From assembly GCF_000716445.1 (NCBI RefSeq), contig NZ_JNWK01000001.1, positions 124,001 through 188,000 of the forward strand: DNA of 64,000 nucleotides, read 5' to 3'. The notes below the pieces were generated by a model. The model worked only from the letters and a program-made list of their open reading frames with translations, had not been told where the DNA came from and made no database searches. Position numbers and translations under genes: made by a program. Numbering within the stretch: position 1 is the stretch's first letter; each line of letters starts with the position of its first letter. The stretch comes from Streptomyces wedmorensis (GTDB lineage Bacteria > Actinomycetota > Actinomycetes > Streptomycetales > Streptomycetaceae). Below, piece by piece: positions 36,753-55,856 of the stretch.

Positions 36753-38435
36753 TCAGTCCTCCAAGCCGTCGAACCGCAGCCCCGAGGAGGACTCGCCGCG
36801 CCCCGGACGGGCGCGGCGGGACGTCCAGAGCACGCCCCGTCCGTCCCGGGTCCGCGCGTACTGGTGGGCCCGGGTGAGGGTGACGCCCTCGCGCGGCACC
36901 TCCTCGGAGAACAGGTCGTACGCGTTCGGCAGACCCGGCGCGAGCAGCCGCCCCAGCGGGCGCAGCGGTGCGCCGTCGGGTCCGTCGAGATGGCCGAGCC
37001 GCAGGACGTAAGCGCCGGGACGCGGCTCCCGGGGAAGGAGCGGGAACCAGTGCGGCGGCACGTCGCTCATCAGCCGGTAGACGGCGGTGCCGCCCGCCAC
37101 GGCCGGGGCGGGGCGGGGCGTCGGAGCCGTACGGGTGCGGTCGAGGGAGCCGCCCACCGGCGTGGGCACCCGGCGTTCCACGGCCCAGGCCTGGTTGGCG
37201 CCCTCGTCCCGCGCGAGCAGCACCTCCTCGACGGGCTCGCCCTCCAGGCCGCCGACGGTCACGGGAGGCACGAACAGGCCGGTGCGCCGGCCGCCGTCCC
37301 CGGTACTGAGCCGGTGCACCGACCAGTGGGCGTCCCCCGCCCCCGCACCGGGCGCGGGCAGCAGCGTCGGACCGCCCAGCTCCGAGCTGAAGGTGTCCCC
37401 GACGACCACCGAGGTGAGCGTGGTGAGGCTGCCGACGGGCACGTCGAGCGGCACCAGGTACCAGTCGTTGCCGTACACGGTGGCGAACTCGGCGACCAGC
37501 ATCCGGGCCAGGTCCGACGGAGCGGCCTCGACACCCCCGAGGTCCACCCGGGCGTCCTCGAACTCCCAGTACCGGCGGGCCGGCATCCCGGGGAAGCGCA
37601 CGGGCGCCGGGAACGTGGTGGAGAGCAGGGACTCCCGGTCTGCGGGCGACTCCAGACCGGTGTCGCCGCCGGCCGTGAAGTCCGTCCAGTCCAGCGTGCC
37701 GCCCTGATAAGCGGGAGCGGTGAGCGTGGTCTCCGTACCGCCCTCGGACAGGCCGACCGAGAAGCGGTGCTCCAGGCGCCGCGCGTCCCACGCGGGATCC
37801 CCCTCGACCGCCGTGAGGTGACGTCCGTCGTACCAGGCGAGCCAGGAGCGGAGCACGGAGTACGCGGCCGGGGGCAGCCCCCAGCCCGGCTCCTCCGGGG
37901 TCGGCGCCGAGGCGTGCAGGCTGAACGCGAGGGCGTGCCCGTCCGGCACCCGACCCCGCAGCACCGAAAGGAAGCGCAGGGTGGCCGCGTCGACTCCGCC
38001 CTCCTCGCCGGTCAGACCGAGCGGGAAGTCGTCCAGGAGCATTCCGACGGCCTCGGCGACCGCGTCCGCCGGGAGTCCGGCCGAACGCAGCAGCCGCAGC
38101 AGGTGCTGGCCCGCCTCGGCGCCGGACCGCAGATCGGCGGAGGTGGCCCGCGGTCCGCCCGGCTCGGCCTCCACCAGCGCCTCCAGCGGCGTCGCGCCGT
38201 CGTAGTCGGTGCCGGCGCCCGCCGGACGGCCCGGCCGGTAGCGGGTGATCCGGTCCGCGTGCCCACGGACCCGCACCCATACGGGAGTTCCGGCGTCGTC
38301 GCCGAGGAACTCGCCCAACTGCCACTGCCGGGCCAGCATCCACGCGGGGTCGTGGACCTGGCCCTCCAGGGAGGGCCGCAGGTCCCCGGTGCGGGCACGG
38401 GGTTCGAGCCGGGTCCAGCTGGTGATCGAAGTCAT
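36753..38435 (-). CDS. Conserved uncharacterised 560-aa protein of the DUF6603 gene cluster
   Basis: This 560-residue soluble protein has no signal peptide or membrane segment. The N-terminus TRLEPRARTGDLRPSLEGQV, followed by DPAWMLARQWQLGEFLGDDAGTPVWVR, is a strongly conserved-looking block; the rest is mixed alpha/beta (e.g. VYGNDWYLVPLDVPVGSL, ARRYWEFEDARVDLGG, VYRLMSDVPPHWFPLLPR). I recognise this type only as a companion of the large proteins upstream; no function is known to me. ATG at 38433-38435 follows GGAGG by eight bases. It is the last gene of the five-gene array, only 5 bases after the 1616-residue gene, and ends 7 bases from the convergent hydrolase. Confidence 0.85.
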   Translation of the reverse strand: MTSITSWTRLEPRARTGDLRPSLEGQVHDPAWMLARQWQLGEFLGDDAGTPVWVRVRGHADRITRYRPGRPAGAGTDYDGATPLEALVEAEPGGPRATSADLRSGAEAGQHLLRLLRSAGLPADAVAEAVGMLLDDFPLGLTGEEGGVDAATLRFLSVLRGRVPDGHALAFSLHASAPTPEEPGWGLPPAAYSVLRSWLAWYDGRHLTAVEGDPAWDARRLEHRFSVGLSEGGTETTLTAPAYQGGTLDWTDFTAGGDTGLESPADRESLLSTTFPAPVRFPGMPARRYWEFEDARVDLGGVEAAPSDLARMLVAEFATVYGNDWYLVPLDVPVGSLTTLTSVVVGDTFSSELGGPTLLPAPGAGAGDAHWSVHRLSTGDGGRRTGLFVPPVTVGGLEGEPVEEVLLARDEGANQAWAVERRVPTPVGGSLDRTRTAPTPRPAPAVAGGTAVYRLMSDVPPHWFPLLPREPRPGAYVLRLGHLDGPDGAPLRPLGRLLAPGLPNAYDLFSEEVPREGVTLTRAHQYARTRDGRGVLWTSRRARPGRGESSSGLRFDGLED

Positions 38436-38440
38436 GGCGC

Positions 38441-41400
38441 CTACCTCCGGAGGCCGCGGGTGAAGTCGGTGGCGACCGCGTCCTCGAACCGGGTGTTCAT
38501 GGCGAGGAGCGCGGCGGGGGCGAGCTGCCCGATGTCGGCCACCGCGGTCGGACTGTCCGGGTGCAGGGCCTCGTAGTCCACGGCGCGCAGCCGCGCCAGG
38601 TCGAGTGCCGCCCGGACGGTCGCGCCGAGCAGGTCCGGCGTCCACGTGGGGGACGCGTCCGGCGGTACGGCGAGCAGCACCGTCTGCGGCGGCGCCGCGT
38701 CCGGCGCGTCGATGTGCAGGGCGACGCCGGTCGTCTGCCGCTCGCGCGGCACGACCTCCGTCCACTCGTCCACGATCAGCCCCCGCAGCCGCCCCGACAG
38801 CAGTTCCTCCGGGGCGACGCCACCGTCCGGAGTGTGCAGGACCAGGGACAGCCGCGGGCCCGGGCTCTGCCCGGCCGCCGGGGGCAGCGCGGCCCAGCGC
38901 TCGGCGCGCGCCGGGTCCGAGGTCGCCGTGTACGGGGTCTGGGCGACCACCGCCGTGAGCGCGTCGCCGCTCTCCAGCGCCTCCGCGTATCCGAGCGTCG
39001 TCACGAGCCGCTCGACCCCCCGCCGCACCCGGCCGAGGCGGCCGAGCCAGCCGGCGGGCGCGTGCGGGTCGCCGGCGAGCAGCGTGTCGGCGTGCGCGAG
39101 GGACTCGTTGAGCGGTCCGGGCGCCGGCGCGGCGAAGCCGGGCAGTACCACGAGCTCACTGCCGAGCAGCGCTCCGAGCACCTCCCGCGCCCACGCTCCC
39201 ACCGGCAGCCCGCCCTGCGCGCGGGCGGTGTCGAGAGTGGCCGACAGGGCGAGCCTGCGGGTGAGTTCGGGAGCCACCGTGGTGGCGAGCGGCGCCAGGA
39301 GCGCGGCGTGCGCGGCGAGCTCCTCCACCGTCGCGCCGGGGCGCGGCGGCAGCGGCGGGGCCGCGGCCGGGACGCCGACGAGATTGGCCGTGACCAGGCC
39401 CCGGTGCAGCCGCTCGACGCGAGTGGCGGCGGGCAGGTCGCCCGGCGTGGCGAGATCGGCCGCGGCGCGCCGTACGACCTCGCGGACGGCGACGGCCCTC
39501 GGCTCCAACGCCGGATCGTCCGGCCCGGCGTCGGCGCCCTCGGGAGCCGCCTCCGGCGGCGCGAGGTCCGCCGGTCGCAACGGACGTGCCGCACGAAGGA
39601 GTTCCCGGGCCGCCCGGACCGTCTCCAGGAGCAGCCCGAGCCCCTCGTCGTCGACGGGCACGGAGACGGGCCGCGGCGCATCCGGCTCGTCCGCCGCGAG
39701 CAGTCGGTCGGCGTGCAGCAGCAGGTGCCGCTCCAGGTCGGAACCGGGCAGCGCCTCCGGGTCGAGCCCCAGGGCCGGCCAGTCCAGCGGGGAGAGCGGG
39801 ATCCCGGCCAGCGGCACCGTACGGCCGCTGCCGTCGGCGAGGCGGACGCCGTACGTGACGGTGTCGGGCGCCGGGAGCAGTGCGGTCAGCCACGCGGCGA
39901 GGGCGGGTTCGGCGAGGGCGCGGGTCTGGGTGAGGGGGTCGATCGCCCAACCGCCCGTGCCCGTACCGGAGTCGGGTCCGGGGTCATCGGAACCCGTGCC
40001 GGATCCCGTACCCGTGCCGGGGTCGCCGCCGGAGCCCGGGCCGCCGGTCCCGTCGTCCGGGAGGTCCCCGCTGCCGGGAGGTCCGCCGGGTCCGTCGCCG
40101 GAGCCGTCGTCGGTCGGCGGGAGGACGACGATCGGCGGGGTGTCCCCGGCTCCGCCGCCGGGGCCGGCGGCGGCGAGCGCGCGGGCCGGCGCCGGGGCCG
40201 TACCGTCGTCCTCGCCGCCCGCCGAGGCCGCACGCGCGAGCGTGGGCGCCGCGGAGCCCGTACCGGCCGGGTCGGGAAGGAGCACGATCACGCGGTGGGT
40301 GATCGCGTCGCCGGTGCGGGGGGTGCGGAGGGACTCGAGCTCGGGGGGCGGGGCCTCGCCGTTGCCCATGGCGTCGAGGGTGGCGCCGGCACGGAGGGGG
40401 TTGCCCTGGGCGGCTTGGTGGACGCCTTCGACGAGGAGGGCGTCGGCGACCGAGTCGACGGCGTCGTCGAGATCGGCCAGGACGGCTTCCAGGGCGGCGA
40501 GTTCCTCCGTCGCGGTCGACGGGACGCCGACGTCGTGGATCAGGTCGAGACGGCCGGAGGCGCGGCGCCGGTGGAGCCGCAGGCCGTCGACGACGTCGTG
40601 GGCGGCGACGGTCTCGCTGACCGTGCCGTCGTGGTCGACGTGGGTCGCGGTCGTCGGGGCGAGCGTGCGGAAGCGGTCGGCCCAGGAGGTCAGCGTCCGG
40701 ACGTGGTGGTCCTTGAGGGCCCGTTCGAAGCGGTAGCCCAGGAGGGCGCCCAGGGGCTGCCCCTGCCGGACGCCGTCGAGCAGCCAGGCCGCCGTGCGGG
40801 CGCGGGCGGAGTGCAGGTCGATCGCGGTCGGCGCGTCCGGCAGGTCGCCGTGGGCGCGTTGGGCGGCGCGCAGCACGGCGGCCGTGGTGGCCTGCGCGAA
40901 CGAGGGCGCGTGGATCGGTCCGGCGGTGTCGGCCGCCTCGAACAGCTTCCACGGAGCGACGGTGCCGGGCGTGGCCAGGGGATCGGTCTCCTCGCCCGCC
41001 GGGCGCCGCTCCGGCGCGACCTCCGCCGGCCCGGTCGCGCGGGGCGTCACGTCGAGGAGCCAGCCGTAGCCGCCGAGATGGCAGCCGTACGGGTACGAGG
41101 AGCCCGGTCGGCGCAGCCAGGCGAGCCGCTTGGTGGCGAGCGAGGTGATCCACGCGTCGAGGCGGTGCGAGGTCGTGTCGAGGTTCTGCGCGAGGAGCCG
41201 TTCGAGGTCCTCGGCGGGCAGCGGCGCCAGCGCCTTGAACGCGGCCAGCGTCTGGTGCAGCGGCTGGAGCTCGGACCGGTTCTTGGCCTCGGGGCTCCAG
41301 ACGTACGCGTCCGCGGTGGCGGGACCGGGGGTGCCGGGAGGCAGGGGCCGCTTGGCGCGCTTCCACACGGTCGCCGTCCTGACGGCCTCGTCGACGTCGA

Positions 41401-43291
41401 TCAGTTCGGGTTCGTTCCGCTCGGCCCGGCCGGTGCCGATCGCGTAGTCGACGGCGCGGGCGTACTCGGCGAGCAGCGCGTGCCGGGCGAGCCGGTAGAG
41501 CAGCGGCGTCGACAGGGCCTGGGCCGCCGGGTCGCCGCCGGCCGCGCCGAGGTCGTGACACCAGCGCGCCCACGGCAGGTTGTCGCGCTCGGCGGTCCCC
41601 GGGACCCGCGCCCACGCGGGCGGGTTCAGCGGGTCGGCGAGGGCGGCCAGGTACTGGGCGGGGGAGCCGCCGGGCGTGCCGGCCGGGGCGTCGGTCCACG
41701 GGTGGTCGAGGGGCCAGGCCTTGTCGGCGTACACGACGCGCCCGGGGCCGTACTCCCAGCCGGGCAGCCCGAGCCGGGCGGTGAGGTCGCGCACGTGACC
41801 GGCGAGGCCGGTGCGCCACTCGTCGTTGAGGCCGAGCGGGCCGAACCGCCACAGCGCGGCCACGTACTCGGTGCCGACGGCGCTGCGGGCGTGGAGTCGG
41901 CGGGAGGTCGGGGCCATGCCGAGGATCTCGGCGACGGTGCTCTGCGAGGCCGCGCCGCGGGTGATCCTGGGCACGGCGTCCGGGTCGGCGGCCGACGGCG
42001 CCCAGATGCGGTCGCGCAGGGTCCGCAGGAAGCCGGGGACGGCCGGGTCGAGGCGCAGCGCGCCCATCCCGGTGCTCTCCAGGTCCGTCCAGCGGTCCAG
42101 CGGCAGCACGGGGAGGATCCCGTACGGCTGGCTCCCGATCCGCAGGGTGGGCAGCGGGCCGCCGGGACGCAGGTAGCGGCGGGCGTGGTCGCGGGCGCCG
42201 AGCACCTGCGTCTCGGAGAACCGGTCCTCGGCGAACTGGCGCACGTAGTAGCCCCAGGTGGCCTCCCACAGTGCGGTGGCCATGTCCCGGGCGGCGGCCT
42301 GGTCGCGGCGGCGCGCGTCCCGGGCGCGGGCCAGCGGCGCGGGGCCGCCGGTCGCGCCGACGAGCGGCAGGCCGAACGCCTTGGCGAGCACCGCGGCGTT
42401 GGTGTCGACGTCGGTCGGCGCGCTGTCGAAGTGCCGGACCTGGTACGCCTCGCGGTTGGCGGGGTCACGGCGGCTGTAGCGGGAGGTGGCCGTGGCCGTG
42501 TTGTTGGACGGCGCGCCCGGCGGCACGTACCCGAGGCCGCGGGTGTAGTACTGCGCCTCGATGAGCGCGGTCAGCTCGGCGGTGGCGACCGTCGGCTTGT
42601 CCTCCAGGACGCCGTACGCGAAGAGCCGGTCGTATCCGGTGCCGCGCGGCAGCCGCACCGCCATGCCGATCGCCTCGGCGGCGGCGAAGTCCACCAGCCA
42701 GCGGGTGGCGTCGTCGGTGGGCGGGGCCGCCGGGTCGAGCTCCTCCAGGTCGGCCGTGGGCGCCGGGCCCACCGGCAGCGGGCCGCCCGCCGCGCCCCCG
42801 ACCTTCGCCGTGACCCGCGTGACGGCGGGCGCCGCCGGGTCCTTCGGGTGGCCGACCACGTACCAGCGGCTCGGCAGGGCGCGCGCGACCGGCCGCCGCG
42901 TCCAGCTCGCCGCGCGCTGCTCGCCCGGCGACGGGAACACGGGCTGGGCGTCCGCCCCGCCCGTGCCCGGCTGGTCCATCGGATTGACCGGCGTCGTGAC
43001 GCGCGCGACCCAGGCGGCCCGCTCGTGCCCGAACCGGTCGGCGAGCTCGCCCCAGGCGGCCGCCTCGGCGGGCCCGTCGCCGCGCGCGGCCCATATGCCG
43101 CGCCAGTAGCGGTGTCCGTAGGCCTCCTCGTCGGCGGTGAGCAGGACCTCGTGGGTGTCGACGTGGATCTCGTCCGGATAGATCCGGACGAGCAGTTCGG
43201 CGGCGGTGAACCGGGTCTCCAGCCGGACGGGCAGCAGTACCACGGGCAGCGCGGTGGGAAGGGTCCAGGCGGGTGGCGGTGGCGTGGTCAT
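38441..43291 (-). CDS. Conserved uncharacterised 1616-aa protein of the DUF6603 gene cluster
   Basis: This 1616-residue protein has no signal peptide or transmembrane helix. An N-terminal part of about 1,010 residues has distinctive blocks: [24 protein letters not shown] near the start, [16 protein letters not shown] (about 250), [20 protein letters not shown] (about 370-390), and a helical region up to about 1000. A linker of nearly only Gly, Asp, Pro, Ser and Thr (about 1020-1110) follows, then a largely helical C-terminal part of about 500 residues. No enzyme motif is apparent. Size, linker and company suggest a structural or scaffold protein (inference). ATG at 43289-43291; 145 bases separate it from the gene upstream. 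Confidence 0.85.
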
Positions 43292-43436
43292 GTGCGTCCG
43301 TCCAGGTGGCGTGCGGAGGTGGGCGGCTGGGCCGCGGAGTACGAGGGAGGGCGGACCGCCCCGGCGGCGGGCCGGGGGCCGCCTCCGGGAGAGGGCCGGG
43401 CCGCGTGGGCCGGCGCCGCGGGCGACGGCGGCGGCG

Positions 43437-46400
43437 TCACGAGCTCGCCCCCTGCGGCGGGTACGCCACCGGGACCTCGTAGGCCTCCGGTGGGATCGTC
43501 GGGAGGGAGAGCAGGTTGTCGGCGGCGTCGGCGTTGGGGGTGGTGCGCAGGTAGCGATCGCCGCTGCCGTCCGGGACCGCGAGGACCGCGGCCCGGGTGC
43601 CGGGGGTCTGCTCCACGTACAGGGCCTGACGGCCGTCGAGCGCGGTGAGCGCCTCGGCGCGCGACATGCGCCACCAGCGGCCGTCCGGCCGGCGGCCGGC
43701 GATCTCGCGGACGAAGACGCCGTCGCTGCCGGGGGCCCTCTTGCGGACGTGGGTGATCCGCAGGCCGGGGCCGTGCAGCGGCAGCAGGGCGGAGGCGTGG
43801 TGGGCCACCCGTACCGGCCGCTGGAGCGTGATGTGGGCCAGGGCGGCCGCGTTGCGGCCCCAGGAGAGCCTCGGCGCCCCGGGGCCGGGGTGCAGCGGGC
43901 GCGGGTCGGCGCCGAACGCCGGCCGGGTGCCGACGTGCGTCAGCGCGGCCAGCTCCTCCGCGCTGCGGACGGTCTTCGCCCAGTCGACGTCCCGCCAGGT
44001 GGAGAAACTCGGCCCGTAGACGGCGTCCCTGGGCGGCTCGTCCAGGCCGAAGGACGGCGCCGTGGCGTGCTCCTCGAAGACGAAGAACCACCCGGGGTCG
44101 GTCTCCGAGCCCAGCGACTCGGCGACGGTGAGGGGGAAGCCGAAGAACAGCACGTCGGCGCCGATCTCCCCGGAGAACACCGGCTCCAGGCGCCGCTCGC
44201 CGAGCCGGCGCGGCCCGCCGGGCACCGCGGACGGCAGCGCGCGCCGGGCGTGCAGCCCGAGCGAGGGGAATCGGCGTACGACCTCGCCGCGGACGAGCAG
44301 CACCACCGCGTCGTCACCGCCGGCCGGCCGGCGCACGGTCTCGCCGAGCGAGCTGTGGCGGCCCCAGTCGCGCATCGGCGGCACGTCCGGCTGCTCCAGC
44401 CCCGGTTCCACGGTGCCGCGCGCGTCCCAGAAGTACCGGAAGGCGGTGGCCCGCCGGTCGGTGGGGTACTCGCGCCACAGGAGTTCGCGGCCGAGTTCGT
44501 GGTTGGCACCGGCGAGGAACGACTCGATGAACCGTCCGTTGGCGCGCAGCAGGGTGACCGTGTCCGCCGGGACGTTCTGCACCCCGGGCAGCAGGTGGTC
44601 GCTGCCCAGCTCGGTGAGCAGCTCCGCCATGGGCTGGGCGAAGGACGGCGGGGCGAGGAGCGGCCCGAGCGGGTCCGGAAGCCCCGAGCCGGCCAGGTCC
44701 GCGCCGTCGATGCGGGCGGCCACCCGGGCGGTGACGGCCGTCTCCGGCTCCGTCGCCTCCCGTACCGCCCCTGCCAGCTGCCTGAGCGGAAGGGCGGGTT
44801 CGGTCTCCTGGAGCGCCCTGCCCTGCGCCGCGAGCAGCGCGTTCTGGTGCGCCTGGGCGGCGGTCCGGAAGTCCGAGGTGATCTTGCGGCGGCGTTCGGC
44901 GACGGTGCCGGGCAGGTCGACGAGGGCCACGCCCGCGCCCTGGTTGGTCCAGCCGTACGAGCCGCCCGTGTCGGCGGCGAACGGCGCGGACCAGGAGCGC
45001 GGTGATCCGTCGCCCCCGTCGACGTCCCAACCGATGCGGTAAGTGGCCGAGTTGGTGGTCGGTCCGTCCTCCAGGACGAGGACGACGAGGTCCGGCTTCT
45101 CCGTGCCGCTGAAGTCGGCGACGGCGATGGCGGCGCCGGCGGCGGCGGGGACCGTGCCGGGCACCTGCACCACGGGGCCCCAGGCGTTCGGCTCCACCCG
45201 GCCCCGGGCGTTGATGTCCCAGCCCACCCGGTAGGAGACCTTGACCCCGGCCGCGGTCTTCTCGGCGAGCATCACGATCAGCTCGGGGCGCAGGTCGTGG
45301 TCGAGGTCGGCGACGGCGACGTCCAGGCCGCAGACGACGGGCGCGGACTCGTCCGGCCTTCCGGGCCACGGAAGTTCGACGGAGTCGGACCAGCCGCCGC
45401 GCGCCACGCCGTTCTCGGGCGAGATGTTCCAGCCGATGCGCAGGAAGAGCCGCTTGTTGCCGTTGATGCCGCCCAGGTAGGCGACGATCAGCTCCTGGTT
45501 GCCGTCGCCGTCGAGGTCGGCGAGCGTGCAGCTGCCCGCGAGGACGCTCACGGGTGTGCTCAGGCCGCCGCTCGCGGTCATGGCCGTCGACATCGGCGTC
45601 GGCATGGCCACCGGCGGGATCCAGCGGGCCGCGTTGCCGTCGGTGTCCAGGTCGCGGCCGATCATGTAGCGGCCGAAGTTCCCGACGTGGCCGTTGTTGC
45701 TGAACTTCTCGATCCAGAAGACCGCGACGTCCGGACGGCCCGAGTTGTCGAGGTCGGCGGTGGCGATGCCGAAGCCCTGGGTGTCCTCGGCGCTCATCCG
45801 CCCCGCCATGCCCGGCTTGAGCTGCCAGCCGCCGCGCACGGACCCGTCGAAGTCGGTGCCCCGGCCGACCCGCAGGTACGGGACGTTGGGGCCGCTCTGC
45901 ACGTCGACGTGACCGACGAGCAGGTTCGACAGGAACCCGAGCCTCGGACTCCAGCGGATGTGGGCCGGGGGCCGCGCAGCAGGGTCGCCCTTGCCGCCGA
46001 ACTCCGGCCGCCCCAGCTGGTACCAGTCGTTGTCGCCCGCGCGGTCGACGACGATCAGCTGACCGTCCGCGACCACGTGGATCAGGTTGCCGTACGGGGC
46101 GCCCTGGACACCCTGGTCGGGGCCGCAGGGGACGCGGCCGTCACCGGGCACGCCGGTGGCCGACGGGATCGCGAGGACCCTGGACGTGGAGTCCGAGAAG
46201 ACGGCGGAGCCGTCGCCGCCGAGCCCGAGGACGCGGGAGAGCGGAGGCAGGTCGTTGACGGGCATCCAGACCAGGTGCACGCCGCCGAGCCACCAGCTCA
46301 GGTACAGGCGGTTGTCGACCCCCATGCCGAGGTACGAACCGTCGGAGTTCCGCACGGGCACGCCGCGCGCGGGGTCGAACCCGCGTCCCCCGGCCGCCGG

Positions 46401-48725
46401 CCGCACACCGGTCATGTCCTCCTGGACCCACTGGGCGCCGTTGTGGCGGTAGCGGATCAGGCTGCCCACGGGCTGGTCGGCCGGGGCTCCCGCGGGAGTG
46501 GTCTCGACGAGCAGCAGCTCCCACGCGCCCTGGACGCGCAGCCCCGCGATCCCGGTGCCTCCCGGGATCCCGTGCGACCTCCAGGACCAGGTCGTCCCCC
46601 GGCCGTTGAGCTCCCACAGCCTGCCCCGGTCGTCCACCACATAGGCCGCCTGGTCGACGTAGCCCGACTGGCCGACGCCGTCCGCCGGCTCGAACCGGGC
46701 GATCGTCGCGAGCCGGCCCTCGCCGGTCACCACGGGCCTGGTGTAGCCCGTGGAGTGCTCGTACGGCATGCCGTGGTGCAGCCACAGCCACTGGTCGCCG
46801 TCCCACCGCAGCTGATACAGGTTCCCGTTCGCGCCGACGACGAAGACGTGCAGGTCACGGACGGCCGAGGGCGGGGAGGCGCAGGTCGTGCCGGGCGGGA
46901 ATCCGTGGTCCACCCAGCCGGGCACGTTCTGCTGGGTGACCCGGGACATGAGCCGGCCGTCCTCCGTGACGACGAACACCCGGTTCGGTATCGCCGCGCC
47001 CACCCAGCGCACCACGGGCACCGCGGGGGCCACGTCCTCCTTCGGCTCGGTCGGATCCTTCTCCCACCAGCGGGTGGTCAGCCGGTCGGCCCTCAGCTGC
47101 TCGAAGGTCTCGTGGCCGGAGAGGTTGTCGACGCCGGTCAGCCCGGCGGGCGTCGGCAGCGGCGGCACCGCCGCCTCGGTGCGGCGGGCGAGCGAGGCGG
47201 CGAGCCCGGTCGCGGCGCTGTCGCCGGCCGCCGGAGCCGTCCCGGACGCGGCGGCCCGGCGCGCGACCGGACCCCCCGGCCGCAGCAGCCGCCGGAACGC
47301 CGGGTCCATCGCCGCGTCGGCCTCCTTGTTGCGGCCGAGCTCGCCGGCGGCGGTCCCGTCGCCGTAGCCGACGGCGTCCCGTACCGCCGAGGTCATCTGG
47401 AGCATCCGGGCGGCGAGCCGGTCGTCGCCCGCCGGGACCGTGCCGGGGGTGGCCCCGGGCAGCCGGCGGTGCAGGCTCTCGGCGACCGTACGGGCCAACT
47501 GGCCCTGCCGCAGCACCTCGTTGGCGCGCCGCAGCTCCGCCGCCTGGTCCCAGGCGGCCGCGACCAGGTCCTCCTGGTTGCGGCGCACGACCTCGGCGCC
47601 CAGCGCGGCGGCCGCCCGGTGTCGCGGGTCGAGGTTCAGCTCGCGCAGCCAGGTGGGCCCGGCCTGCGCCGAGGGCAGACCGGCGGTGCCGGCCTGCGCG
47701 GAGCCGTAGACGGGCGGGGTGAGCGCCGTGTTCAGCGGGCCGGGGTCCAGCGCCGCCTTGTAGGCGGTACGGAAGGCGGCGGCCGTCTCCGCGTGCCACG
47801 GGTGCGGATCGGTGCCCGCGGTCCGCAGCGCCCCCTCCAGGTCGAGCACCCGCCCCGGGTGCCCGGACGGCGGCTCGGGCAGGCCCCCGCCGGCCGCGCC
47901 GACGTCCACCGGCCGGGTCCCGACGTCACCGGGCAGCGCGCGCGGGGTGAGCGCGCGGACGAGGGACTCGAAGTCGCCGTCGAGCCCGGTGGTGAACCGC
48001 CAGTGGTGGTACACCGGCAGCAGCCACTCCGTCACCTCGGGCTGCTCGCCCGCGGCGGGCCAGGCGGGCCGCAGAGCGCCCTCCGGCACGGGATGGCCGA
48101 GGCCGGCGAGTCGCCCGGCGTCGAACGCGGGGACGACGGCCGCGACGTAGCGGGTGCGCGGGCGCAGCCTGCGCGGACACAGCAGCCGGGACAGCGTCCG
48201 GTCCGGCTCCTCGGCCAGGATCCGGTCCACCTCGGCCTCGTCCGCGCCCTCGTCGGTCGCCACCTGGGCGTGTGCCCAGGCCCACGACTCCGCCAGGTCG
48301 GGCAGCTCGGACCGGCGGCACCGCAGCCGGGGCAGCGCGCCGTCGGAGGGCAGCACCTCGGCGTGGTCCGCCTCGGCCACCACCAGGACCAGCCAGGGGC
48401 GCAGCCGCCCCAGCTCGGTGGCCCCCGCCGGGGTGAACAGCCACGGCAGGTCCGGCCGGTCGAACTCGACCGCCGGGAAGAGGTGCGGCTCCGCGTCCGC
48501 CGCCTCGGCGGCCGGGAACACGCGCAGCACCTGCCCGGCGTCCAGCCCGGTCACGTCCCCCGGCCCGAGCAGCCGTGCCGGTACGGCCACGGAGTCGCGA
48601 CCGGTCAGCCGCGGCCGCAGCGTGACTTCGGTCCGCGACGCCATCGGCCCGGACGTGGGGTCGGTGGCGCCCCCGGCGGCGGCGAGTCCCTCACGGACCC
48701 AGGACAGGAAGGTCAGGCCGCTCAA
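43437..48725 (-). CDS. Giant protein with lectin-like propeller and FG-GAP repeats, DUF6603 cluster
   Basis: This 1762-residue protein lacks a signal peptide. The N-terminal 560 residues carry blocks such as [32 protein letters not shown] and [13 protein letters not shown]. Residues about 570-830 contain aromatic repeats ([53 protein letters not shown]) of the type in fucose-lectin/PLL propellers. At about 980-1220 are four FG-GAP/VCBS-like repeats with calcium-loop patterns ([61 protein letters not shown]). The C-terminal 370 residues have another conserved-looking block, [23 protein letters not shown] at 48723-48725 follows GGAGGG. Glycan binding is inferred. Confidence 0.85.
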
Positions 48726-48861
48726 CGCGTCCCTCCGGTGGTGGTGTCGACGGACGGAGTACGGGGGGTGGGGCGGGCGGCCGCACGGCACGCCGCGGTG
48801 GCGGTCCCGGGCGCGGGCAGGCGGGAGCCGCCCGGCGCGGGGAGCGCGGGGGCGGTCCGGG

Positions 48862-51800
48862 TCAACGCGCTCCTCCCGGGGCCGTCTCGGGAGTGAGGCG
48901 CAGGCCCGTGCCTGCGCGGGCGCGACGGAGTTCGGCGGCCTCCGTCCAGGTGGTGCCGCGAGGGGCGGCCGAGCGCAGCGCACCGGCCTCGCCCGGCCCC
49001 TGGGAGACGGACCAGCGGGTGTCCCGTACGCCCAGGTCGCGCGGGGCGGCGGCGAAGCGCCCCCGCCCCTTGCGGCGGCCGGCCGCGCGGGCGGCGGGCG
49101 CGGCGGCGGTGCGGAGGCCGGCGGGCCCGGAGGCGGCCGGGGCCGGGGCGGCCTCGCGGTGGGCGCCGTCCTGGACGACCTCCTCGTAGTCGACCGAGGA
49201 GGCGAACACACCGGTCCGCTCCCGCTCGCGGGCGGCCGCGCCCTCGGCGGACGCGCCCGCCGTGAGCAGGTCGAAGGAGGGGGCGGCGAGCTTCTCCTCG
49301 TCCGTCAGGTCGAGGAACTGCGCGGGCGCGAAGTACTCCCGGGTCGGCGTCAGCCGCACCGTCACCGGCGCCGTCGCCGGGTCGGCGTCGTCCACCGTCA
49401 GCTCGGGCTCGAGGTCGAGCCTGCGCGCGCCGTCCACGGGCGAGATGCCGTAGCGGGTCAGCGTGACGCCCAGCGGGGCGACCCGCTGCGTGAACGACAG
49501 ACCGCCCAGCGGATGCACGACCAACCGGCCCTCTGCGTCGGGGAGTTCCCGCAGAGTGACGACGGTCCGGCCGGCCCCCGTGAGCTGGGCCGTCCAGTTG
49601 CGCGGGTCGGCGAGGGCCTCCTCCACCTTGGCCGCGACGTCCACGGCGGCGGGCAGGGCGGCGGGCGCGGCGTGCCCGCCGAAGGTCCGGTCGAAGCTGA
49701 TCTCGCCGCTGAAGAAGAGCACCTCGAAGCGGGCGCGGCCGCGCACGTGCCAGGGTGCCGGGCCGGAGAGCGCGATCTCGACCCCGACGCCCGTGACCGT
49801 CCGGCTGCCGCGCTTGAGCGACACGTGCCCGGCGATGTCCACCTCGAAGCCGAACGGTTCGAAGCGCACGAGGGCGTCGAAGGCGAGCAGCCCCTCGACG
49901 CTGAAGCCGAGGGCCGCCGCGTACAGCTCCAGGCGGGCGCCGAACTGCACCGTGTTGGAGGTGAGCGCGAAGTACGCCTCCAGGCGGACGCGGGGGTTGT
50001 CGCCCTGGAGCAGCGACAGGTTGAGCCGCCGCAGTTCGGGGAAGCCCTCGGGCCGCTGGAAGCGGGGATGGAAGCCGCCCGCGGACAGGGCGAAGGACGG
50101 CCGGCCCTTCCACCGGGCCCGCATCGCCATGTCGCCGGTCAGCGCGAACGCGGCGATCCGCGAGTCGTGCAGGGTGGCGTCCACGGACGCCTCGCCGCGC
50201 TCGAAGTCGATGACGCCGAGCACGTCCATGTTGACGACGACGAGGGCGGTCTCCTCGGTCGGCAGTGCCATCCGCAGCCGCCCGAGCAGCACGAGCCGTA
50301 CGGGTGTGGGCAGTTCGAGGAGCAGCGCCAGGTCGAGGGTGAGCAGGGTGGGCGTGCCCCAGCCGATCCTGGCCATCGGGCCGACCACGTGCCGGCCGGG
50401 AGTGGGCGGGAAGACGGCGCCGAGCGTGGCGACGATCTCGGGGGCTCGGCCCAGCGGGTCGCGCGGGAACAGCACCGAGTCCAGCGCCTTGCTGCGGATG
50501 CCGGCACGGAGGGTGTCCACCGACACGGAGCGGTTGACGCCGATCAGGCCGCCGACGCCGGACAGGGTGAAGCCGAAGCCGAGCTGGATCGGCGTGAACT
50601 CCGCCGACACCAGGATGAGCAGCGAGAAGCCCTCGCCGCCGTCCGGCATCCTCGTGGTGAGCAGACCGACGGCCTTGAGGGCGATGCTCTCCAGCTGGAG
50701 CGCGAGCACCCCCGCGTACTCGCCCTTGTCGCGGTCGAAGAAGAGGTAGCCGCCGCCGGTGACCGGTCCGGCGGAGACCTCCAGGGCGGCGCCCTTGGGC
50801 GGTGCGAAGGCGGCGCCGAGACCCACCGGCCCGAGGTTGCCGTCGGAGGTGGTGAGACCGGCCTCCAGGCCGATGCGCTCCACCGTGGCCCGTACGGGTC
50901 CCAGGTCGAGCCGGGCGGTGGCGGAGACGGACGCGCGCAGCTCGCCCTCGGCGGCGTCGGCGTCCAACCCGAGGTGGATCGCCTGGAGTTCGATCGGTCC
51001 GAGGCGGGCGTTGACCGGCAGGGTGGCGTCGAGCCCGGCGGAGCCGGTGAAGCCCAGGCCCTTGCGGCGCGACCACTGGAGGCCGAGCGCGAACTCGGTG
51101 CGCAGCCCTTCGGGAGGCAGCACCCGTGCGAGGAAGCCGTCCCCGTCGCCGCCCGCGACGACGACCGCGGCCTTGTCGGCGGCGATGCCGATCTCCAGGT
51201 CGTCGCGGCTCTGGGTGCCCTCCGGCACCTCCTCCAGGACGGCCTTCAGCCAGGCCCGGAAGCCGCCCAGTTCGAGGCGGGTGCCGGTGGCGCTGCCGAG
51301 GAGCACCGCGGGCGCGTCACCGGCGCCCGACTTGCCCATCTCCAGGCCGAGTTCGATCCGGCCCGCGGTGTCGGTGGCGAAGGACACCCCGCTGGGGCCG
51401 ATGGCGACGGCGGGACCCGCGCCGGACAGGTCGGCGGCGATCGACCAGCCGTCGCCGAGGAGCCGGCGCACGGCGGCCCGGCCGCGCGGGACGACGACCA
51501 CGCCGAGGTCGCCGGAGACGGGGGAGGAGATCGCCACGGTGGCGCCGATCTCGCCGCCGACCCCGGGCGCGACGGCGATCGGCAGGGCCAGGGTGAGCAT
51601 GCGGCGGCCGAGCGCGAGGGACGCCTCGTCGAGGCCGGTGCCGTCGGTCTCGCCCAGACCCACGAGGACCCTGACGCCGAGTTCGTGCAGGAGTCCGCCG
51701 AGCCGCGGCAGCAGCTTCACGGCCAGCGCGTCGGCCGTCGCCTCGTCGACCAGGCCGCCCGGCAGGTAGTCGGCGCGCAGCGCGGCGACCGGGTCGGTGA

Positions 51801-52380
51801 CCAGCTCGAGGAGCCGCTCCGGGCGCAGCCGGGCGCGCGCGACCGAGGTCCGTACCGCCTCGCCCTTCTCGTTGACGACCGGGGTCTGCTCCCCGGCCTC
51901 CTCGGGGAGCACCAGCACCCCGAGCAGGACCAGGACGTGGTAGAGCACGGCGTGGTGGCGCAGCAGCCAGTCGGTGACCAGGAAGTGGACGACGTCCTCG
52001 GCGAAGGCGGCCGCGTCGAACTCCGCGAGGGACGGCGGCACGTCCCGGACGAGCTCCACGGCGTCACCGACGACGTCGAGCAGCCGGCCGAGCCCTTCGA
52101 GGTCCTCCGGCGGGTGCTCGACCAGTTCCTGGAGGCCGCCGACGGCGCCCGCGGTGGTCGTCAGCCACTCGGCGACATCGGCCGCGCCCTCCTCGCCGGC
52201 GGCGGCCGGGTTCCAGCCGATCCGGGCGAGCAGCCGCGCGAGGTGCAGCGGGTTGGCGACGGCCTCGGTGACGGGCTGGACGATCCGCAGGATCTCGGTG
52301 ACGAGGGCGCTCTGACCGTCGACGGGGCCCTGGGGCGCGTCGGGGCCCTCGGGTTCGCCGTCGGGGGGTGTCTCGGTCAT
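48862..52380 (-). CDS. DUF6603 domain protein
   Basis: This 1172-residue protein contains the long DUF6603 region: GFGFTLSGVGGLIGVNRS, SVLFPRDPLGRAPEIVATLG, MARIGWGTPTLLTLDLAL, GGFHPRFQRPEGFPELRRL, YFALTSNTVQFGARLELYA. Residues about 1-200 are helical, then hundreds of residues of alternating hydrophobic/polar strands (about 200-960) suggest a very long beta structure such as an open groove, followed by a basic, Ala-rich tail (about 1075-1172). No signal peptide. Its ATG overlaps the PhoD-like gene stop (ATGA), so the two are translationally coupled. The function of DUF6603 is unknown to me. Confidence 0.88.
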   Translation of the reverse strand: MTETPPDGEPEGPDAPQGPVDGQSALVTEILRIVQPVTEAVANPLHLARLLARIGWNPAAAGEEGAADVAEWLTTTAGAVGGLQELVEHPPEDLEGLGRLLDVVGDAVELVRDVPPSLAEFDAAAFAEDVVHFLVTDWLLRHHAVLYHVLVLLGVLVLPEEAGEQTPVVNEKGEAVRTSVARARLRPERLLELVTDPVAALRADYLPGGLVDEATADALAVKLLPRLGGLLHELGVRVLVGLGETDGTGLDEASLALGRRMLTLALPIAVAPGVGGEIGATVAISSPVSGDLGVVVVPRGRAAVRRLLGDGWSIAADLSGAGPAVAIGPSGVSFATDTAGRIELGLEMGKSGAGDAPAVLLGSATGTRLELGGFRAWLKAVLEEVPEGTQSRDDLEIGIAADKAAVVVAGGDGDGFLARVLPPEGLRTEFALGLQWSRRKGLGFTGSAGLDATLPVNARLGPIELQAIHLGLDADAAEGELRASVSATARLDLGPVRATVERIGLEAGLTTSDGNLGPVGLGAAFAPPKGAALEVSAGPVTGGGYLFFDRDKGEYAGVLALQLESIALKAVGLLTTRMPDGGEGFSLLILVSAEFTPIQLGFGFTLSGVGGLIGVNRSVSVDTLRAGIRSKALDSVLFPRDPLGRAPEIVATLGAVFPPTPGRHVVGPMARIGWGTPTLLTLDLALLLELPTPVRLVLLGRLRMALPTEETALVVVNMDVLGVIDFERGEASVDATLHDSRIAAFALTGDMAMRARWKGRPSFALSAGGFHPRFQRPEGFPELRRLNLSLLQGDNPRVRLEAYFALTSNTVQFGARLELYAAALGFSVEGLLAFDALVRFEPFGFEVDIAGHVSLKRGSRTVTGVGVEIALSGPAPWHVRGRARFEVLFFSGEISFDRTFGGHAAPAALPAAVDVAAKVEEALADPRNWTAQLTGAGRTVVTLRELPDAEGRLVVHPLGGLSFTQRVAPLGVTLTRYGISPVDGARRLDLEPELTVDDADPATAPVTVRLTPTREYFAPAQFLDLTDEEKLAAPSFDLLTAGASAEGAAARERERTGVFASSVDYEEVVQDGAHREAAPAPAASGPAGLRTAAAPAARAAGRRKGRGRFAAAPRDLGVRDTRWSVSQGPGEAGALRSAAPRGTTWTEAAELRRARAGTGLRLTPETAPGGAR

Positions 52381-54929
52381 GAGGGCAGTCCTTCGCTGTC
52401 GATCGCGGCGTCACGGGCGGTGGCGGCGGGGCCGGTGGTCTGGCCGACGTCCAGCGGGACCACGAGCCGGGTCAGCGGGGCGCCTCCCACGTTGCCGGGG
52501 AGGTGCCACCAGAGCGTCTGCGTCACGGACTTGGCGTCCTGGCCGTTCCAGACGAACTGGACCTCGCCGATGTTGTTGCGGCCGACGATCTCCCGGCCGC
52601 TGCCGGTGACGGCCATGTAGTCCAGGTGGTTGTCGGCGGCCTGTACGTACTGGGCGAGGGCGGCGCGGCGGTTTCCGGTCGCCGGGAAGGAGACCGGCGC
52701 GGGCCCGCCGGGGCGCGGCGCGGTGCCGTCCGGGTCGTCGTGGCGGTAATAGCTGAGCTCGTACTCCCACTCGGGGGCCGGGCTGTGCACGGTGGCGCCG
52801 TCGTGGAGTTCGAGCAGCGCCGGGCTCTCCTGGACGTGGACCGGGGCCAGGGGCAGGCCGAGGCCGCCGCGGGTGCGCACTTCCATGAAGCCGCCCGACG
52901 GGTTGGCCCAGCCGGCCCGGTGGGTGTGCGGCAGGTCGACGCGCTTGAGGTTGAACCCCGCGTGGTGCAGCAGCATCGTTCCCGTCGCCTCGTTCTTGAG
53001 CGAGCTGGACGTCAACTGGGCGAGCACCGCGCGGACGTGGCCGGGAGTCGAGCTGAACGGGGCCGACGCCCGGTAGGCCATCCGGGCGGCGAAGCCGTAG
53101 TGGACGTCGCCGCCGAGGGAGACGACGCGCCGCCGCCGTACGCCGTCGGCGCCGGGCGCCGCGTGGCCGAGCAGCCGGGCGATGAACTTCTCGAAGGCGC
53201 GCGGGTCGTGGCCCCAGGCCTCGTAGTCCTGGTCGAGCTGGCCCGGGTATCCCTGGAGCCGTCGCACGGCCGGCTGCGCGAACTCCTCGATGAGCGGGTC
53301 GCCGAGGACCGGGCAGGGCGACAGGAGCACGGTCACCTTCTCCAGTCCCTGGTCCTCGGGGGCCTCCACCATCGAGGCGAAGGTGGCGTCGGAGTAGAAC
53401 AGGGACGGCGGGTCGGTGAAGCCGCCGCGGAAGACCCGCTGGGTGCGGGTGTCCACGGCCACCAGCTGGTGGGCCGGCCAGGTGATCGCGTAGTGCCAGA
53501 CGAGCGAGCCGTCCCGGCGGACGATCCGCCCGGCCGAGTCCGCCCCGGTGGGCGTTCCGGTCCGGCGGGCGATGACCGCGGCGGGTCCCGCGGCCGTGTG
53601 GTCCGGTGCGGCGAGCGCCGTCAGCAGGTCGCGGCCCGCTTCGCCGCGCGGCCCGTCGGCGAACTGCTCCGGCGTGTTCCCCCAGCCCTGGCAGACCGCG
53701 TACGAGGCCATCGCGTTGCCGAGGAACTGCCGGCCGTGCGGGAGGTCGCAGACCTCGTGCACCCACTTCCTCGAGATGTACCAGTCGTCGGTGACCTCGT
53801 GGTCGTCGAACATCATGTACGTGGCCGTGTTGGCGAGCGCCCTGCGGACCATGCCCAGGGTGCCCCGGAAGCCGTCCAGGTGGTCGCTCTCGGCCACGTA
53901 CTCCATCAGCCGCTCGTGCGCCTTCTTGTACTCCGGCTTGTCCAACAGGCCGAAGTACTCCGTGTGGTCCGGGTTGCCCAGCTCGGCGGTCTCCCTGGGG
54001 AAGAGTTCGGCGAAGAACCGTATCGGTGGCACGGCCGGCCACAGCGTCGGAGACCACACCATGAGGTACATGGCGAGGAACTCCGAGAACCGCAGCAGAT
54101 GACTGCGCGCGTGGGTGCTGGTCATCTTGAAGTCGTCGAGGACCATGCTCTGGCGCCAGCCGGGCCGGAAGGACCACTTCTGGTGGGCGGGATGGACCGT
54201 CGGGAAGGTCTCGTCCCGGCCGAGCAGCGTCCGGCCGTACACGGTGCAGATGTGGAGCAGCCCGTCGGCGACGTCGTCCGCGTAGATCTGATCACCGGTC
54301 AGGATCAGCTGCTGGGGCCGGCGCCGGGTCGAACCCGCGTCGGCCTGGAGCACCTCGTCGAGGATCGAGAGGGCGTCCGTGCCCCCGGCGTGCGGCTTGC
54401 GGCACGAGGCGTGGAAGAGCCGGAGCTCACCGGGGTGGTACGGCGGGGTGATGAAGCTGGGGTGGGTGGGCGCGCCCGAAGTCCCTTGGTACAGGAGGGC
54501 CTTGCGGGCCGCTGCCTCGTCCGCGGCGATCACGCCGGGGGAGAAGAGGTCCGGCGCACCGGCGTCCACCGGCGTCGTCGGCGAGGAGAGGTCCTCGCCG
54601 AACCGCACCGTGTACCGGTGGATCATGCCGGGCCTGAGCGTCCCCCCGGAGGGGACCGCCGCGGTCACCGCGACGAGGTGAAGATGCTGTCCGATCCGCG
54701 CCGTGACCCGGGTGCCGGTGAGGTGGGGCGTCGCGGGGAGCGCGCCCAGGGCCCCCTCGTGGACGTCCAGCGTCACCTTGCGCGGCGCCTTCAGCGCCAG
54801 CCACACGGTGACGGTGTTCCGGTCGACCCGCCGGACGATCGGTCCGGCGAGGACCAGTGGCAGTGCCGCGACGTCCAGCGCGGGAAGGGCGGACGCCCCG
54901 GTCCCCGCGCGCGCTCCTGATACCCCCAC
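52377..54929 (-). CDS. PhoD-like metallophosphoesterase, DUF6603 cluster
   Basis: This 850-residue protein has the metal-binding motifs of the PhoD/metallophosphatase family: LTGDQIYADDVADGL (about 210), FDDHEVTDDW (about 376) and SLGGDVHYGF (about 605), on a chain longer than classic PhoD (about 550). An N-terminal beta domain resembling the PhoD N-domain (VRRVDRNTVTVWLALKAP) precedes it, and extra C-terminal beta sequence follows. Unlike secreted PhoD it shows no Tat or Sec signal. GTG at 54927-54929 is preferred (GGGGG five bases upstream); a GTG at 54995 would add 22 residues. First gene of the five-gene array; its stop overlaps the DUF6603 gene start. Phosphodiesterase activity is expected, substrate unknown. 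Confidence 0.85.
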   Translation of the reverse strand: MGVSGARAGTGASALPALDVAALPLVLAGPIVRRVDRNTVTVWLALKAPRKVTLDVHEGALGALPATPHLTGTRVTARIGQHLHLVAVTAAVPSGGTLRPGMIHRYTVRFGEDLSSPTTPVDAGAPDLFSPGVIAADEAAARKALLYQGTSGAPTHPSFITPPYHPGELRLFHASCRKPHAGGTDALSILDEVLQADAGSTRRRPQQLILTGDQIYADDVADGLLHICTVYGRTLLGRDETFPTVHPAHQKWSFRPGWRQSMVLDDFKMTSTHARSHLLRFSEFLAMYLMVWSPTLWPAVPPIRFFAELFPRETAELGNPDHTEYFGLLDKPEYKKAHERLMEYVAESDHLDGFRGTLGMVRRALANTATYMMFDDHEVTDDWYISRKWVHEVCDLPHGRQFLGNAMASYAVCQGWGNTPEQFADGPRGEAGRDLLTALAAPDHTAAGPAAVIARRTGTPTGADSAGRIVRRDGSLVWHYAITWPAHQLVAVDTRTQRVFRGGFTDPPSLFYSDATFASMVEAPEDQGLEKVTVLLSPCPVLGDPLIEEFAQPAVRRLQGYPGQLDQDYEAWGHDPRAFEKFIARLLGHAAPGADGVRRRRVVSLGGDVHYGFAARMAYRASAPFSSTPGHVRAVLAQLTSSSLKNEATGTMLLHHAGFNLKRVDLPHTHRAGWANPSGGFMEVRTRGGLGLPLAPVHVQESPALLELHDGATVHSPAPEWEYELSYYRHDDPDGTAPRPGGPAPVSFPATGNRRAALAQYVQAADNHLDYMAVTGSGREIVGRNNIGEVQFVWNGQDAKSVTQTLWWHLPGNVGGAPLTRLVVPLDVGQTTGPAATARDAAIDSEGLPS

Positions 54930-55046: not shown

Positions 55047-55856
55047 CTACACCTGACCCTCCGTCACCCTCTGCGCAGGGCGCCGCCCTCGGCGGGGCAC
55101 GGACTCCAGGAGGAGTCGTGTGTACGGGTGTTCGGGGGCGTCGAGGACCCGGTAGGCCGGACCCGACTCCACGACCGCACCCGACTTGAGCACCAGCACC
55201 TCGTCCGCGATGTGCCGGACCACCGCGAGGTCGTGCGTGACGAAGAGGTATCCGACCCCGGACTCCTCCCTGATCGTGCGCAGGAGTTCGATGATCTGCG
55301 CCTGGATCGACACGTCGAGGGCGGCGACCGCCTCGTCCAGGACCAGGACCCTCGGCTCCACCGCAAGGGCGCGCGCGATCGCCACCCGCTGGCGCTGGCC
55401 GCCGGAGAGCCCGCGCGGCAGCGCCGCGGCCTCCCGCGCGCCCAGGCCGACCTGGTCGAGCAGCTCGTCGACCCGGGTCCGGCGGGCGGACGCGTCGAGC
55501 GGGGTGTGCAGCCGCAGCACCTCGTCCAGGCAGCCCGAGACCGTGATCCGGGGATCGAGGGAGAGGTACGGATCCTGGAAGACCATCTGGATCTCCCGGG
55601 CGCGGGCGAGGCGTTCGGCCCGGCCGCGGGGCCGTGCCGAACGGTCCCGGCCGTCGAGCCGGACGGTGCCGCCGTCGGGGCGTTCCAGACCCACCAGCAT
55701 GCGGACCGTCGTCGTCTTGCCGCTGCCGGACTCCCCGACGATGGCGAGCGAGGAGCCGGGTGCGAGCGCGAACGAGACGTCGTCCACGGCCGTGTGGTCG
55801 CCGTACCGCTTGCGCAGCCCTTCGACGACCAGCCCCTCCTTGGTCGAGACGGTCAC
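55047..55856 (-). CDS. Opp/Dpp-type ABC transporter ATP-binding protein (F subunit)
   Basis: This 269-residue ATPase of an oligopeptide/dipeptide-type importer has Walker A VGESGSGKTTTV (about 40), Q-loop VFQDPYLSLDPR, signature LSGGQRQRVAIARAL, Walker B VLVLDEAVAALD (Ala replaces the usual Pro-Thr of DEPTSALD) and switch FVTHDLAV. The C-terminal YRVLDAPEHPYTRLLLESVP is the family tail. Its GTG start overlaps the preceding ATPase stop by 4 bases. Last gene of the operon; 117 bases separate it from the PhoD-like gene upstream of the next operon. Confidence 0.92.
   Translation of the reverse strand: MTVSTKEGLVVEGLRKRYGDHTAVDDVSFALAPGSSLAIVGESGSGKTTTVRMLVGLERPDGGTVRLDGRDRSARPRGRAERLARAREIQMVFQDPYLSLDPRITVSGCLDEVLRLHTPLDASARRTRVDELLDQVGLGAREAAALPRGLSGGQRQRVAIARALAVEPRVLVLDEAVAALDVSIQAQIIELLRTIREESGVGYLFVTHDLAVVRHIADEVLVLKSGAVVESGPAYRVLDAPEHPYTRLLLESVPRRGRRPAQRVTEGQV

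Follow-up and report, generated by a model that had tools for sequence, protein, structure and literature searches.

Giant proteins of a conserved, mobile four-gene cassette in bacteria and archaea may belong to a protein delivery particle

Genes B, C, D and E, which encode large proteins in the window (the whole 64,000-nucleotide stretch analysed here, from a host genome of 9.38 Mb in 259 contigs that looks like a Streptomyces by its closest named homologues), form one well-supported conserved unit. The gene before them, A, occupies a slot with exchangeable content and is a passenger, not an obligate member. The array exceeds chance by far, since 36 cassettes show these four genes in the same order. 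We tentatively read B to E, with a confidence that falls just short of even, as parts of a released, non-contractile particle for adhesion and effector delivery.

Five open reading frames (ORFs) with 5,960 residues together were found on the minus strand, at the sizes first stated: gene A (52377..54929; 850 aa, a PhoD-like metallophosphoesterase), gene B (48862..52380; 1172 aa, a DUF6603 protein), gene C (43437..48725; 1762 aa), gene D (38441..43291; 1616 aa) and gene E (36753..38435; 560 aa). A and B overlap by 4 bases, D and E are 5 bases apart, and the B/C and C/D gaps are 136 and 145 bases, the latter becoming 193 if D begins at an inner start codon, which the gene caller prefers. The array, lengths and spacing described in a sequence-only reading of this DNA were confirmed by the coordinates. 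Its remark that no evident terminators separate the genes also held: the two terminator-like sites in the array are intragenic, one inside B and one inside E, with 2.0 expected by chance. That reading had also denied the proteins any signal peptide or membrane helix, which is likely by hydropathy. It stands best for C and E of the window, where no segment reaches 1.6, and less well for A, which peaks at 1.92, and for B and D, with borderline segments of 1.78 and 1.64. The peak in A (residues 14-32) is the start of a conserved N-terminal domain; no Tat leader was recognised there, as the Arg-Arg pair (33-34) sits after the hydrophobic stretch and no twin-arginine precedes it. A hydrophobic N-terminus was absent from all proteins checked for C (33), D (31) and E (37), some of which were truncated where a locus ended. 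Neither NCBIfam nor PADLOC (for the latter the 2023 library, with matches examined up to an E-value of 1) offered a model for A-E. At 55047-60298 of the window lies what by eye is an oligopeptide-type ABC transporter operon; it shares the strand of A and stops 117 bases short of that gene, and transcriptional read-through into A is possible.

The B-C-D-E order, on a single strand and with no called gene in between, was found in all 36 cassettes read. These came from a search of a genome collection with E (17 loci), from plasmids, from other genomes and from one phage-labelled record (label unverified). Twenty-nine lie in one stretch, the copy on contig C9 of the window genome spans two adjoining stretches, and six are each divided among separate stretches (three of Streptomyces, two of Actinokineospora and that of G033). 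Left out of the count were a decayed copy (L021, S. nymphaeiformis), an E that lies behind IS5 genes with a remnant of D (L055, S. anthocyanicus), contig fragments (L014, L024-L026, L072-L074 and L076), a B-C pair followed by an ORF that is cut by the contig end and was not recognised as D (L075, G435), and a second DUF6603 arrangement described below (L060, L062 and L064). Gaps of 14 bases or less make up 71 of 99 in the first 39 stretches (33 gaps per gene pair), ranging from -8 to 136 for B/C, -10 to 284 for C/D and -10 to 94 for D/E. D and E are a single gene in two other genomes (G016 and G266), and C or D is broken into adjoining genes in Rhizobium, Halobellus and Gemmatirosa.

Pairwise protein distances, compared for 18 loci with all four proteins (out of 29-37 per family) in cassettes that cross phyla, are correlated: 0.79 for B-C, 0.88 for B-D, 0.84 for B-E, 0.88 for C-D, 0.87 for C-E and 0.95 for D-E. 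None of 999 label permutations, a procedure that ignores shared host descent, reached any of the six values. A survey of the phylum with 396 genomes gave 10 with E, 12 with DUF6603 and 8 with both (0.3 expected); the E counts may be too low, because three candidates were scored per genome. In five of the eight genomes the two lie on one contig, in six cassettes and about 8-11 kb apart; the other three, G279, G399 and G435, have them on separate contigs of fragmented assemblies. E occurs without DUF6603 in G342 and in G381, whose contig starts inside E, and DUF6603 without E in G277, G319 and G334, which carry the second arrangement, and in G417, where B and C share a contig of 3.4 kb.

Gene order, the D-E fusion and the matching distances suggest that B-E physically form one complex. 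The sequence-only reading had placed all five genes in a single complex. Its view of an old unit is borne out for B-E by the fixed order in 36 cassettes and could not be kept for A; occurrence of the genes apart from each other in genomes, which it had named as a refutation, is true of A and not of B-E. The family is ancient, as had been proposed, with at least 1,773 relatives of E and at least 3,368 of C past the cut-off in searches that scored about 8,000 candidates each.

Full cassettes have named hosts in Actinomycetota, Nitrospirota, Pseudomonadota, Gemmatimonadota and Halobacteria; for unannotated records the phylum is a presumed one. For single homologues the names point to Acidobacteria, Desulfobacterales, Longimicrobiaceae, Roseiflexaceae and Neobacillus. 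The cassette is sporadic and mobile: E was found in 4 of 61 related genomes searched, its own included, and 14 plasmid records had a match, four of them haloarchaeal and three of S. longwoodensis. The window genome contains a second cassette on C9, whose E is 42% identical to that of the window, and Nitrospira LK70 likewise carries two. In haloarchaea (L049, L050, L054 and L057) D has 2,300-3,200 aa and E is larger, with 860-1,210 aa; several of these proteins are annotated as BGTF-surface or lamin-tail proteins.

The slot before B holds a PhoD-type gene in 11 of the 36 cassettes, another gene in 13 and no abutting gene in nine, and was not read in three (L010, L011 and L051), so that the phosphoesterase, earlier taken for a fixed part of the set, is not one. 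A of the window matches Pfam PhoD (1.9e-7), carries the motifs GDQIYADD (212), DDHEVTDDW (375) and GGDVHY (606), and had no match among PDB sequences up to an E-value of 1. PhoD-type genes also fill the slot in three Streptomyces, two Actinokineospora, the second copy of Nitrospira LK70, Salinigranum, Citricoccus, G124 and S. longwoodensis. All three active-site motifs were found in five of six A proteins examined; the S. longwoodensis plasmid protein (L047:1645-6189; 1,514 aa) has lost two of the three and gained a peptidoglycan-binding domain. Elsewhere the slot contains Het-C (Nitrosomonas), Peptidase_S8 (G033), Peptidase_M64 (G181, likewise fragment G399), WD40 (G016 and G266), a ferritin-like gene (C9 of the window genome, 244 bases from B), SLT with PG_binding (G361) or PG_binding with Peptidase_M23 (Arthrobacter). 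Trypsin-like proteins occupy it in Gemmatirosa (Trypsin_2 4e-4 and Nal1_C 0.0034, both below cut-off) and, by eye, in Paraburkholderia. Slot proteins without a model were found in Halalkalicoccus and Natrinema (33% alike), in Halobellus and in fragment G279. No gene abuts B in five loci of Roseateles, Rubrivivax and Sphaerotilus or in Rhizobium, NBC_01724, S. europaeiscabiei and Nocardia; in three of these nine the closest same-strand gene, 124-277 bases off, is an ordinary one, for a histidine kinase, an FAD protein or RNase E.

Five slot proteins of unlike kinds and three lineages have in common a C-terminal domain of about 120 aa, which could be a common loading module. The carriers are the G033 subtilase and four trypsin-like proteins (by eye or weak match) of Gemmatirosa and Paraburkholderia. 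They score 1.5e-48 to 6e-58 with a model built from the same five, after BLAST values of 1e-6 to 1e-12. The domain was detected in no other ORF of the loci then compared and has no Pfam model. The haloarchaeal slot proteins of L050, L054 and L057 show a hydrophobic hairpin and, after it, a W..FG-like stretch, with no Pfam match where scanned, features that we take to resemble pore-forming type VI effectors.

C appears to display an exchangeable region on a fixed frame. In BLAST against C of other phyla, its N-terminal part (about residues 1-520; 47166..48725, minus strand as all parts of C) stops at residues 421-544, and its C-terminal part (about residues 1291-1649; 43779..44855) starts at 1238-1361 and ends at 1560-1649. 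The conserved blocks noted earlier at both ends of the large proteins are therefore true of C. These ends align across all loci compared and match no Pfam, NCBIfam or PADLOC model; the middle differs or is missing in other phyla. The insert of the window (about residues 521-1290; 44856..47165) contains FG-GAP and, by eye, propeller-like repeats, with FG-GAP_3 at 1070-1151 (7.5e-8), in line with the earlier suggestion of a recognition part, and is probably a binding-type region. It is followed by a DUF3892-like tail (residues 1656-1742; 43500..43760; Pfam 1.9e-4, at its cut-off, and PHROG 8224 1.5e-5). The middle holds LamG in Nitrospira and, by eye, GTWxG repeats in the C9 copy, and short forms of 850-940 aa have little or no insert. 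Among the matches listed in a search with the N-terminal part, 120 C proteins, a Pfam domain was found in 18 and none in 102, with domain position within the database proteins outside the count. The domains are LamG in 13, tachylectin in two, N_BRCA1_IG in two and FG-GAP in one, three of these names being what we take the accessions to denote.

B matches Pfam DUF6603 (PF20248) at 1.8e-145 and belongs to this family by profile. Its predicted model (pLDDT 81.6; pTM 0.53, so that the overall shape is loosely fixed) has a helical N-terminus and then, at residues 261-900, about 35 long antiparallel two-faced strands. Hydrophobic and polar residues alternate along the strands with a value of 2.89 against 1.23 in shuffles, none of 500 shuffles being as high. 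The best PDB rows by fold are LptD, ushers, porins and ApoB, and among the matches listed the likeness is local, with TM-scores of at most 0.16 by query and 0.30 by target. The model points to B as a putative lipid-facing beta-sheet protein. D and E matched nothing in Pfam, NCBIfam or PADLOC, and the predicted fold of E gave no significant match in PDB or BFVD; in the conserved parts of E (residues 1-50 and 285-311) the model is of low confidence.

DUF6603 occurs in two arrangements, the B-C-D-E cassette and a remote one in G277, G319 and G334, in which a C-related protein (hhalign probability 29%, 72% and 96%) comes after the distant DUF6603 member, and then genes whose 'P.RW.VV' stretch is D-like by eye. 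The presence of a C-like gene behind a remote B suggests that the core is old. The DUF6603 ORF of G334 has about 3,234 aa.

Directly after E, genes that we take to be fibre-like were found in Nitrospira, Nitrosomonas and Citricoccus, with short stretches in common. The Nitrosomonas protein ends in an H-type lectin domain (H_lectin), and those of Nitrospira, with 'GNVGIGTT.P' repeats, and Citricoccus have no Pfam match; a further match (1e-9) lies after E in the first LK70 copy. Other genes after E encode Amidase_2 (A. bangkokensis), Peptidase_S8 (Nocardia, as annotated), pentapeptide proteins (S. europaeiscabiei) and WD40 proteins (C9 of the window genome and, as annotated, NBC_01724). TIR genes lie near four cassettes (L010:14036-16945, L018:16189-17694, L030:1-873 and L035:7675-8595), one with NACHT and one with WD40, and annotated NB-ARC and CHAT genes were found at two plasmid loci; all of these fit a defence role equally well.

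The binding domains, the fibre-like partners, the murein-active enzymes and the phosphoesterases, proteases and Het-C suggest action outward, on the envelopes of other cells. The steps that we infer for such delivery are assembly, release, target binding, lipid contact, docking of E on D and delivery of the slot enzyme. B, C, D and E would assemble in the cytoplasm, as subunits, into a single large particle, to be released by lysis or in another way; on attaching to other cells it would carry an enzyme to the envelope or into the interior. On a fixed base, C would show a binding domain that can be exchanged and here is of the propeller/FG-GAP kind; D and E would be the scaffold, with E docking on D via its conserved N-terminus. 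B would be a very long two-faced beta-sheet meeting lipid as a pore, a membrane wedge or a lipid-filled groove. The gene beside B would provide the cargo enzyme, and A might cut phosphodiesters such as those of teichoic acid or phospholipid head groups, on which PhoD enzymes act (PMC4223295, excerpt). For cargo we count the genes adjoining B or E that match PhoD, Het-C, Peptidase_S8, Peptidase_M64, SLT, Peptidase_M23, PG_binding_1 and Amidase_2, and the 120-aa domain, which unlike slot proteins have in common as they would a loading tag. Polymorphic and PVC-type systems use Het-C as a toxin domain, and subtilisin domains serve there mainly for processing (PMC3482391, excerpt). Recognition is argued for by the Pfam-domain inserts of C and the fibre-like genes behind E, and lipid contact by the alternating strands of B and its LptD, usher, porin and ApoB rows. 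Against delivery we count the TIR genes at four loci, the nine of 36 cassettes without a gene abutting B, and the ferritin-like and WD40 slot genes, which are not obvious toxins.

No likeness to a known delivery machine was found by sequence for A-E, or by fold for B (local sheets) and E. Extracellular contractile injection systems (eCIS) occur in bacteria and archaea, with lectin or propeller binding parts and toxin genes beside the core (PMC8213781, PMC12923769 and PMC11297309, excerpts). The cassette, judged by its genes, resembles them in these respects, but A-E lack Pfam matches to the core families listed in PMC8213781, and to sheath, tube, baseplate and spike. A contractile sheath match is present in 14 of 22 cassette genomes (the only genomes counted), so that delivery by such a system stays compatible, and none was found in eight, among them the one-contig G361 and G124. 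The window genome has its sheath match on C10 and its cassettes on C1 and C9. In Citricoccus an eCIS-like cluster (L078:2995-19998; sheath by Pfam, the rest by eye) begins about 22 kb behind E, within one contig, with unrelated genes between. DUF4157, the eCIS toxin mark, was absent from A-E and from 47 further slot, neighbour and C proteins, among the matches listed. Tc-type toxin complexes consist of few giant subunits with propeller/FG-GAP domains and an exchangeable toxic part. The cassette seems similar in all three, but A-E have no Rhs/Tc Pfam match, B is beta-rich and the cargo is encoded separately.

Polymorphic toxin systems are mobile and have exchangeable effectors including Het-C (PMC3482391, excerpt). 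The cassette seems comparable in its mobility and in the unrelated genes, several of toxin type, that share one slot; here, however, whole genes vary beside a constant four-gene core, and no immunity gene was recognised in passing. A is like the PhoD and S. chromofuscus phospholipase D family in its Pfam match and motifs, and unlike it in its 850 aa, its tie to a four-gene cassette and the lack of a twin-arginine before the hydrophobic stretch. It is possible, at rather less than an even chance, that the cassette encodes a protein delivery particle of a new class, one without descent from phage tails, with a plasmid-moved B-C-D-E core in bacteria and archaea, a plug-in binding domain in C and enzymes beside B, some with a shared docking tag. 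No paper on DUF6603, PF20248 or the cassette was found in the main texts of one open-access library; the term DUF6603 is absent from the main text of PMC12923769 and PMC11297309, and the excerpts of PMC8213781 name DUF4157 and DUF4255 alone. This four-gene system, whose relatives number well over a thousand and span two domains of life, has no name and no family model for D, E or the conserved ends of C. If it does encode a delivery particle, it would add a class not built from phage tails, with modular binding and cargo parts; even if structural or immune, it would account for the giant 'hypothetical' genes that recur as a block in soil bacteria and haloarchaea.

Clear export signals were not seen by hydropathy, which would suit an intracellular immune or self-recognition complex, where C senses an invader molecule and the slot enzyme (PhoD, Het-C or protease) kills or arrests the cell. 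Such a complex would also agree with the sporadic distribution (E in 4 of 61 relatives, its own genome included, and in 10 of 396; 14 plasmids), with the TIR genes near four loci (one NACHT, one WD40) and the annotated NB-ARC and CHAT genes near two, and with the work of Het-C in fungal incompatibility (PMC3482391, excerpt). We nevertheless consider it unlikely: A-E have no PADLOC match up to an E-value of 1 (2023 library), lectin-type domains, a fibre-like gene and Amidase_2, SLT, M23 or PG_binding make little sense inside a cell, and the two-faced sheet of B is left unexplained.

The same lectin-type inserts in C would fit a particle or coat that serves the producer itself in structure or adhesion (spore, sheath or matrix) and whose enzymes are surface activities without attack, as would the BGTF-surface and lamin-tail names given by annotation to archaeal D and E and the nine of 36 cassettes without an abutting gene. 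The lack of clear export signals by hydropathy speaks against a coat, and a gene set that is rare in the genus and found on bacterial and archaeal plasmids is unlike a housekeeping coat, which makes this explanation improbable too. Still more doubtful, and in our view very unlikely, is a lipid-handling machine with B as a lipid belt or bridge and PhoD or Het-C as phospholipid enzymes for membrane remodelling or stress. The two-faced sheet of B, ApoB among its Foldseek rows and the membership of S. chromofuscus phospholipase D in the PhoD family (PMC4223295, excerpt) agree with it, but proteases, amidase and ferritin-like genes occupy the same places, C has lectin-type inserts, and the fold matches of B are local (TM-scores as given above, among the matches listed).

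The C9 cassette of the window genome (L003, L004 and L036) is diverged, with the ferritin-like gene before B and WD40 and Big_3_5 genes after E, and genes of 1,051 aa and 1,260 aa without Pfam match lie near it. A pair of genes of about 250-270 aa, 35% identical, was found near the cassettes of Streptomyces C9 (L003:7959-9682) and Nitrospira (L080:9863-11610). Beside this pair both have a RimK-like ATP-grasp gene (48% identical), and in Streptomyces C9 a neprosin gene follows the group.
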